From: Fibrobacter sp. UWB4
GTDB taxonomy: Bacteria > Fibrobacterota > Fibrobacteria > Fibrobacterales > Fibrobacteraceae
Direction of reading: 5' to 3'
DNA: 64,000 bases
Assembly (NCBI RefSeq): GCF_002210345.1
Contig: NZ_MWQI01000007.1
Coordinates: forward strand, 1 to 64,000
Numbering within the stretch: the first letter of the stretch is position 1; each line of letters begins with the position of its first letter. The translations under genes were made by a program, and so were the position numbers. The notes beneath the pieces were generated by a model. That model did no database searches and was not told the origin of the DNA. It worked only from the letters and a program-made list of their open reading frames with translations. Below, in pieces: positions 56,666-58,200 of the stretch.

Positions 56666-56829
56666 AAAAAAAGGGCATCTCCTACGGTGCGAACACTCGA
56701 AACTACTATTTTACAATGATAGCAGCGCCTCGGGGATTTGTTTTTCGCGTCGATGCGCGCCTAAACTGAACCACAAGAGCAACGAGCTGATTTATTCCTG
56801 TTAGATCGGGTGTAAAATCCGTGGGATGC
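56666..56829 (-). ncRNA. Structured non-coding RNA, candidate 6S RNA
   Basis: On the minus strand a -10 TATTAT (56841-56836) precedes an RNA starting near GGGCATCCCACGG. The 3' end CCGTAGGAGATGCCC pairs with it (GGGCATC with GATGCCC, ACGG with CCGT, then ACAC with GTGT), and seven T follow at 56672-56666. So a long closing stem brackets about 160 bases. A small hairpin CTGCTAT/ATAGTAG lies on the 3' side of the central region and a GC-rich stem at the far end (GCGCG/CGCG). Size, shape and position next to zapA recall 6S RNA. The identification by synteny is inference; SRP RNA motifs are absent. Confidence 0.6.
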
Positions 56830-56875
56830 CCACGTATAATATATGTTTCTTAAAAGGCAAAAACAAGGGAGAAAA

Positions 56876-56908
56876 TGAAAAAAATCTCGGCACAAAATAC
56901 CGAGATTT
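56876..56908 (-). terminator. Terminator of the zapA transcript
   Basis: On the minus strand AAATCTCGG (56908-56900) pairs with CCGAGATTT (56890-56882), followed by a run of seven T ending near 56878. It lies 29 bases after the zapA stop and ahead of the promoter of the ncRNA. Confidence 0.88.
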
Positions 56909-56937
56909 CGAATGTGTATTAAATGTATCTGTTGAGC

Positions 56938-57252
56938 CTAAACTTGGTTGTCGGCTTTAGGGAGCGCTTCGTCCAGCTGGAGCGAAAGTTCTCTAATATC
57001 TTTATCCATCAGGTCATGATACGATTTGGCTTTGCGTAATTGCTTACGCAGCTCGACAATTTCGGAAGTGAGTTCCACAGCCAGCAAGCAAAGCTGCTTT
57101 TTCATTTCCAGTTTAAATTTCGAGGAATTATCGAGACGACTTTCGATGAAATCGACGATTTCCTTCAAGTCCGTATCGGGCAAGTCTGTGCGGATGTGGA
57201 TGCGTTCTTGAGCGACGTTAATGCTGACTGATCTAAGTGTCTCGTTTGCCAT
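56938..57252 (-). CDS. zapA: Cell division protein ZapA
   Basis: 104 residues: an N-terminal beta-rich domain (SVSINVAQERIHIRTDLPDTDLKEIVDFIESRLD) and a C-terminal coiled coil (SEIVELRKQLRKAKSYHDLMDKDIREL). This is the ZapA fold, which bundles FtsZ filaments at midcell. It follows the repeat-rich coiled-coil gene by 45 bases on the same strand. Confidence 0.85.
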   Translation of the reverse strand: MANETLRSVSINVAQERIHIRTDLPDTDLKEIVDFIESRLDNSSKFKLEMKKQLCLLAVELTSEIVELRKQLRKAKSYHDLMDKDIRELSLQLDEALPKADNQV

Positions 57253-57297: not shown

Positions 57298-58200
57298 TTA
57301 GCCGAAAAAACCGGGTTGCGAGCCTCCATTGCTCGCGAACAGGTCTGGGGTTTCTTCCTGAGGTTTGTTTTCTGCCTGTTGAGCAGGGGCTTCTGCCTGT
57401 TCTGCTGCCGGCTCGTTGATATTGATTTCGGTGCCGAGTTCGTTTTCGATCGTAGAAAGGAGCTGCTGGAACTTGCTCTGGGCTTCGGCGATTTCGTTGC
57501 CCTGGTTCTGGACCTGTCCGTTGAGGTTGTCGATGATGTCGTTCTTTTCAGCGATCTGTCCGTTGAGGCAATCAATGATGTTGTTCTTTTCGTCCATCTG
57601 GCCGTTCAGAGAATCAATGATGCTGTTCTTTTCGTTGACCTGACCGTTGAGAGCGTCGATGATGCCGTTCTTTTCGGCGACCTGTCCATTGAGGGAATCA
57701 ATGATGCCGTTCTTTTCGGCAACTTGGCCGTTAAGGGCGTCAATGATACCGTTCTTCTCGCTGATCTGGCCGTTCAGGGAATCAATGATGCTGTTCTTTT
57801 CGTTGATCTGACCGTTGAGGGAATCGATGATGCCGTTCTTTTCGGCGACCTGTCCATTGAGGGAATCAATGATGCCGTTCTTTTCGGCGACTTGGCCGTT
57901 AAGGGCGTCAATGATACCGTTCTTCTCGTTGACTTGGGCGTTCAGGTTGTCGATAATGCCGTTCTTCTCGTTGATAGCTTCGTCCTGGGCGGCGGCCTGG
58001 TTGGCTCTTGCATTGAGGGCGGCTTCGTAGTCGGCGATCTTTGCGTTGGCGGAGTCCAGCAGGTTTTTCTGGTCTTCTGCCTGAGCGTTTTTGCTTTCGA
58101 GAAGCTGCTTGAGTTTGGCGTTTTCTTCACGCAGGGCGCGTACTGTTCCGAGGACGCTTTCAACCTTCTGCGACAACAAGTTCATGTTTTCGAAATTCAT
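57298..58200 (-). CDS. ZapB-like coiled-coil protein with 14-residue repeats
   Basis: 300 residues, almost entirely coiled coil. The start MNFENMNLLSQKVESVLGTVRALREENAKLKQLLESK resembles ZapB (a short coiled-coil division protein). From about residue 79 to 233 it is eleven repeats of 14 residues with consensus IIDxLNGQVxEKNG. The final part (NEIAEAQSKFQQLLSTIENELGTE, then an alanine, glutamine and proline-rich stretch) ends PGFFG. It is cotranscribed with zapA, so a role in division is likely. GGAGAAATA precedes the ATG. Confidence 0.8.
   Translation of the reverse strand: MNFENMNLLSQKVESVLGTVRALREENAKLKQLLESKNAQAEDQKNLLDSANAKIADYEAALNARANQAAAQDEAINEKNGIIDNLNAQVNEKNGIIDALNGQVAEKNGIIDSLNGQVAEKNGIIDSLNGQINEKNSIIDSLNGQISEKNGIIDALNGQVAEKNGIIDSLNGQVAEKNGIIDALNGQVNEKNSIIDSLNGQMDEKNNIIDCLNGQIAEKNDIIDNLNGQVQNQGNEIAEAQSKFQQLLSTIENELGTEININEPAAEQAEAPAQQAENKPQEETPDLFASNGGSQPGFFG
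57502..57963. repeat. Eleven tandem 42-bp coding repeats
   Basis: The 14-residue units above are encoded by 42-bp repeats of the type TCAATGATGCCGTTCTTTTC (plus strand). Some neighbouring copies are identical over long stretches, for example around 57690 and 57870, which points to recent slippage or unequal exchange. Bounds are approximate. Confidence 0.85.

Follow-up and report, generated by a model that had tools for sequence, protein, structure and literature searches.

A probable, strongly diverged 6S RNA downstream of zapA in Fibrobacter and its family

Does Fibrobacter possess a 6S RNA? In other bacteria, this small RNA takes hold of RNA polymerase as growth slows down; members of Fibrobacter count among the major degraders of cellulose in herbivore guts. 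The question was raised by a segment of Fibrobacter sp. UWB4 within the 64,000-nucleotide stretch of DNA analyzed here (the window). A preliminary description, made from the sequence of this stretch, had pointed out a -10 box, a closing stem, a hairpin on the 3' side and a T run, all on the minus strand, and had proposed a 6S RNA next to zapA. All of these elements were found where they had been placed, and the strand, coordinates and size held up as well, at 159 nt plus a U tail (Table 1). The 159-base segment starts with GGGCAUCC, ends with GAGAUGCCC, and is followed by seven U (56672-56666); it would form a rod-shaped RNA, open at its centre, and lies immediately downstream of a ZapB-like/ZapA gene pair.

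The obvious check, a search with Infernal and the Rfam 6S model RF00013, failed on this segment: no match was obtained in the window or the genome (none at E<=10 in a local scan, and nothing reaching the gathering cutoff of 46.4 bits), nor in any Fibrobacteraceae genome searched. At the locus, none of the Rfam models gave a credible match. SRP RNA and RNase P RNA were excluded, both being found elsewhere in the genome with no match at the locus.

Table 1. Features of the locus in window coordinates. CM, covariance model; R1, R2 and R3 are the genus, family and outgroup models described in the text.
Feature	Position	Strand	Details and evidence
Probable 6S RNA (ssrS), body	56673..56831	-	159 nt, 5' end near 56831; end-to-end CM R1/R2/R3 matches, family conservation
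U7 tract 3' of closing stem, probable 3' end/terminator	56666..56672	-	sequence
-10 box TATATT	56838..56843	-	6 nt before RNA 5' end at 56831
Weak -35 box TTGTTT	56861..56866	-	17-nt spacer to -10
Closing stem P1, 5' arm	56825..56831	-	compensatory changes at every pair, family-wide
Closing stem P1, 3' arm	56673..56679	-	compensatory changes at every pair, family-wide
Stem P3 at bubble border, 5' arm (ACACCCGA)	56806..56813	-	double change in 4/7 pairs (helices 3-4)
Stem P3, 3' arm	56693..56700	-	family alignment
Central bubble, 5' side (UCUAACA...)	56781..56805	-	unpaired in CM; GAUCUAACA invariant in genus
Apical stem-loop, internal loop AGG/AA	56727..56780	-	covariation in helices 5-7; alignments
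Central bubble, 3' side, including hairpin 56703-56725	56701..56726	-	MFE; conserved sequence, little covariation
zapA, cell-division protein ZapA	56938..57252	-	Pfam ZapA 17.7 bits, under cutoff; orthologues at same position pass
ZapB-like coiled-coil gene, upstream of zapA	57298..58200	-	N-terminal 68 aa versus Pfam ZapB, under cutoff
Intrinsic terminator between zapA and RNA	56881..56909	-	terminator prediction

Distribution and transcription signals

By blastn, the segment was detected in 35 of 37 sampled genomes of the genus, a count that includes the genome of the window; another 24 genomes, drawn from the order, class and phylum, gave no match. Covariance models reached further. The genus model (R1) recovered the RNA in 76 of 80 genus genomes and in 14 from other genera of Fibrobacteraceae, and the family-wide model (R2) did so in 100 of 111 Fibrobacteraceae genomes (55 of the 56 good ones), in single copy; the one second match with R2 was weak and came from a genome with 8% contamination. 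The ZapA encoded in the window was 88-100% identical to ZapA of Fibrobacter genomes, several of which are MAGs named F. succinogenes.

Of 46 family loci, 45 have a -10 box (TATATT/TATTAT/TATAAA) 4-9 nt ahead of the RNA 5' end, versus 5.7% of control positions. The gene agrees with the 6S class in this promoter-like box of its own, in its single copy and in its near-universal presence. Many genus loci also carried TTG(T/C/A)TT at a 17-nt spacer; a generic promoter scan found no site at the window locus, where the -35 is weak. A T-rich stretch, with T at 6 or more of 8 positions, marked the 3' end in 35 of the 46 loci. Because a terminator intervenes and a separate promoter is present, the RNA is probably transcribed independently of zapA.

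These signals bear on whether the segment could instead be a regulatory element, situated either in the 3' untranslated region that follows zapA or in the 5' leader preceding the serine-hydrolase (beta-lactamase family) gene. The RNA does lie between these two genes on the same strand, and 4 nt separate the end of its U tract from the listed GTG start of the hydrolase open reading frame. The hydrolase, however, follows the RNA only in loci L001-L006, the terminator parts the RNA from zapA, the -10 box that belongs to the RNA is conserved, and the RNA persists where zapA has moved; we regard an untranslated region or leader as having a negligible chance of being correct.

Fold and covariation

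The single-sequence fold was only mildly better than those of shuffled sequences (z -2.13; 6 of 200 shuffles at least as good), and with a stability this modest the case rests on comparison. On the first genus alignment, made with MAFFT and left untrimmed, RNAalifold did not recover the closing stem, since the ends of the L023 group had been misaligned. In the trimmed genus alignment (A2), to which the structure was assigned by hand, 95.2% of cells were paired and 8 pairs had double changes, versus none for slid partners. Across the family, a 20-sequence alignment had 90.7% of cells paired, double compensatory changes in 27 of 38 pairs, and a covariation score of 0.398 versus 0.05-0.09 for slid partners, in an alignment that was itself fitted to the structure and thereby flatters the pair counts. 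Changes in the outer stem are visible by eye, as the arms read GGGCAUCC/GGAGAUGCCC in the window, GGCGGUCC/GGGACCGUC in L023, and AAACAUCC/GGGAUGUUU in L093.

Helices P1-P3 and the apical stem, all with covariation, thus frame an unpaired centre in the rod architecture of the 6S class, and the covariance match spans positions 1-172 of the outgroup model (R3). The hairpin on the 3' side of the bubble (helix 8) was conserved in sequence, with covariation support in the family alignment that was almost nil. An alternative fold of the window sequence, which lengthens both stems bordering the bubble, was calculated at -47.2 versus -48.6 kcal/mol; as a speculation from these modelled energies, two near-equal folds would be in keeping with the refolding that 6S RNA is known to undergo. 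Loci L032, L033, L034 and L035 carry an insertion of ~40 nt in the apical hairpin, the remainder of the RNA being nearly unchanged.

Homology to recognized 6S RNAs

Of 168 Fibrobacterota genomes, 23 yielded 6S RNAs with RF00013, all of them outside Fibrobacteraceae and three above the gathering score. A direct link from the family to these RNAs was not obtained: R1 gave no meaningful match to the RF00013 loci, and R2 matched neither most RF00013 loci of family f10 nor E. coli ssrS. The link runs instead through intermediates. In genome G051, from another family of the class, an RNA 28 bases after the zapA domain (L118) was matched by RF00013 (31.1 bits), R1 (24.8 bits) and R2 (26.2 bits), on one strand and over a near-equal extent. 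Family f3 has conserved RNAs of the same design after zapA in six genomes (L119-L124), as do four other genomes (L133-L136). Aligned together with L118, these RNAs form a rod with an open centre and have compensatory changes in 25 of 50 pairs.

From this alignment we built R3, comprising 11 zapA-adjacent sequences (L118, L119-L124 and L133-L136), none from Fibrobacteraceae. It matched the window at 56674-56830 on the minus strand, end to end and as the sole match in 64 kb, with 34.4 bits (E 3.5e-7), a score that is not fully independent, since L118 and L119 had entered the model partly because R1 and R2 matched them. Scores reached 48.4 bits in other Fibrobacteraceae, 39.3, 29.5 and 20.9 bits for the Rfam-threshold 6S loci L041, L039 and L040, respectively, and 54.2 and 47.7 bits for the 6S loci L058 and L049 of family f4. 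With filters off, the best match of R3 in the E. coli locus was ssrS itself, at 1188-1362 versus the annotated 1184-1366; this match was weak (12.5 bits, E 0.006) and in register. When the whole genome was searched with R3, no match was found among the 150 of 739 first-look candidates that were scored; this limit on candidates most likely explains the result, since the window RNA is matched by R3 directly. The preliminary description had held that a lack of covariance support would count against a 6S RNA; bridging covariance models do match, and the failure of RF00013 taken alone would mislead.

The apical internal loop can be followed along the same chain. The AUG/AA form occurs in E. coli (GCAUGCUCGG...CCGAGAAGC), in L118 (GCAUGCCCGG...CCGGGAAGGGC) and in L115 (UUUAUGCCCAG...CUGGGAAAAAC); Fibrobacter has AGG/AA (UUUAGGCGCG...CGCGAAAAAC) where related genera and E. 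coli 6S have AUG/AA.

The antisense strand of genus RNAs (L001, L007, L009 and others) also scores with R1, because the rod is nearly self-complementary, and strand calls from such models should therefore be checked against the promoter and the flanking genes. That rod-like RNAs score somewhat in these models, with genus antisense matches of up to 34.9 bits with R1, is what might be said for an unrelated small RNA having converged on a rod shape. Yet the outgroup-built R3 matches end to end and on the correct strand only, and both the apical internal loop and the position after zapA are shared; convergence is accordingly very improbable in our estimation.

Somewhat less improbable, though still unlikely, is a relative of 6S resembling Ms1 RNA of Actinobacteria, which would bind the core enzyme of RNA polymerase in place of the holoenzyme with the housekeeping sigma factor, and would make no product RNA. 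Ms1 has a structure related to that of 6S and goes undetected by 6S models (PMC9130861), and the Fibrobacteraceae sequence is likewise far enough from RF00013 to be missed; both have a 6S-like fold and came to light through gene context. Ms1, which binds core RNA polymerase, has a different gene context (HAD hydrolase), and no homology link to it was found here. The homology of the Fibrobacteraceae RNA runs instead to RF00013 6S RNAs in the same phylum and to the zapA context, and the bubble edge (CGAUCUAAC) is among its most conserved parts, as a template site should be.

Taken together, the bridging models bear out the proposed identity, and sequence comparison argues strongly that the window RNA is a divergent, previously unannotated 6S RNA (ssrS) of Fibrobacter. 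It would be ordinary in kind, a divergent member of the 6S class that is new as far as these tools show. A literature search for 6S RNA and Fibrobacter returned only an unrelated match; the main 6S survey (Wehner et al. 2014) lay outside its scope, and an earlier listing there is possible. Like RF00013 6S/SsrS, to which it is homologous through the R3 intermediates, the RNA is a rod of ~160-200 nt with a closing stem, open centre and apical stem, encoded by a single gene, but its sequence has diverged below any RF00013 detection. It resembles E. coli 6S in having zapA directly upstream, and differs from it in the apical loop (AGG/AA, not AUG/AA) and in that no fau lies directly downstream in the window. 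Other Fibrobacterota 6S RNAs (L039-L061, L118-L124) have the same fold and a similar bubble edge, with UUGACUAACA versus CGAUCUAACA, and several follow zapA; they differ in their longer closing stems, in that some have folD or RNase Y downstream, and in that several are recognized by RF00013.

Gene neighbourhood and predicted function

The naming of zapA as the neighbour was correct, since orthologues at the same position pass the Pfam cutoff (e.g., 33.3 bits in G002). For the gene upstream of it, the N terminus matched Pfam ZapB at 26.3 bits (E 1.1e-5), which is under the 31.5 cutoff and in a class of protein, coiled coils, that attracts false matches. Near-perfect copies of EKNGIIDSLNGQV recur many times in this ZapB-like open reading frame (57298-58200), which varies in length between relatives.

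The position of the RNA beside zapA, which the preliminary description had likened to that in Proteobacteria, is kept in much of Fibrobacterota. Within Fibrobacteraceae, zapA lies 99-200 nt upstream of the RNA on the same strand in 39 genomes (among those with detectable zapA), ~3 kb away in 14, and on another contig in 9. In 11 fetched genus loci without adjacent zapA, uvrC was directly beside the RNA; in these (L012-L014, L017-L020, L032-L035), zapA is ~3 kb off on the opposite strand, which suggests a local rearrangement across uvrC. In genus g17 (G096-G107), most genomes have the RNA, which was not found beside zapA (different contigs). Outside Fibrobacteraceae, RNAs begin 20-38 bases after the zapA domain in G051, G049, G038, G052 and G054, of which only that in G054 was found without a prior look at zapA (by RF00013).

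Genes further downstream vary. In family f3, folD follows the zapA-adjacent RNA (L119, L122; Pfam THF_DHG_CYH on L122), while in family f4 (L125, L126) a folD-like open reading frame comes directly after zapA, the 6S RNA being elsewhere; E. coli likewise has a folate gene (fau) after zapA-ssrS. In G052 (3' part of L129), the order is zapA, 6S-like RNA and an RNase Y gene (Pfam RNase_Y_N); in G056 (L128), an RNase Y-like open reading frame follows zapA, and no RNA was detected between them.

The locus annotation of E. coli gives the order zapA-ssrS-fau, and ZapB-ZapA-SsrS is the order in beta- and gammaproteobacteria (PMC7641849), which equals the ZapB-ZapA-6S order in the window. The ZapB-like/ZapA neighbours suggest a link between growth state and division. 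A more tentative idea, which we consider possible but doubtful, is that this order is older than the divergence of Fibrobacterota from Proteobacteria and marks a functional coupling of the 6S brake on RNA polymerase with Z-ring assembly.

Promoter mimicry, sequestration of the housekeeping RNA polymerase and release by product RNA have been described as background for 6S RNA (PMC8414754). By homology, the rod with its open centre would mimic a melted promoter and, on nutrient depletion, occupy the housekeeping sigma-RNA polymerase holoenzyme, so lowering transcription from housekeeping promoters; on regrowth, the polymerase would copy the 5' side of the bubble into a short product RNA, which would unzip the rod and free the enzyme. 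The predicted template runs from ~56805 back through the 5' arm of P3. Were the bubble edge CCCGAU to serve in this putative role, the product would start with AUCGGG and read about 5'-AUCGGGUGUAAAAUCC. The E. coli product RNA starts with AUCGGC.

Standard Rfam annotation would leave Fibrobacter without a 6S RNA, and the absence of an RF00013 match is not the absence of 6S. The RNA described here very probably supplies the missing 6S gene for the whole family Fibrobacteraceae and closes this gap in detection. The pairing of zapA with 6S, familiar from Proteobacteria, also occurs in several families of Fibrobacterota, making its age and purpose testable.
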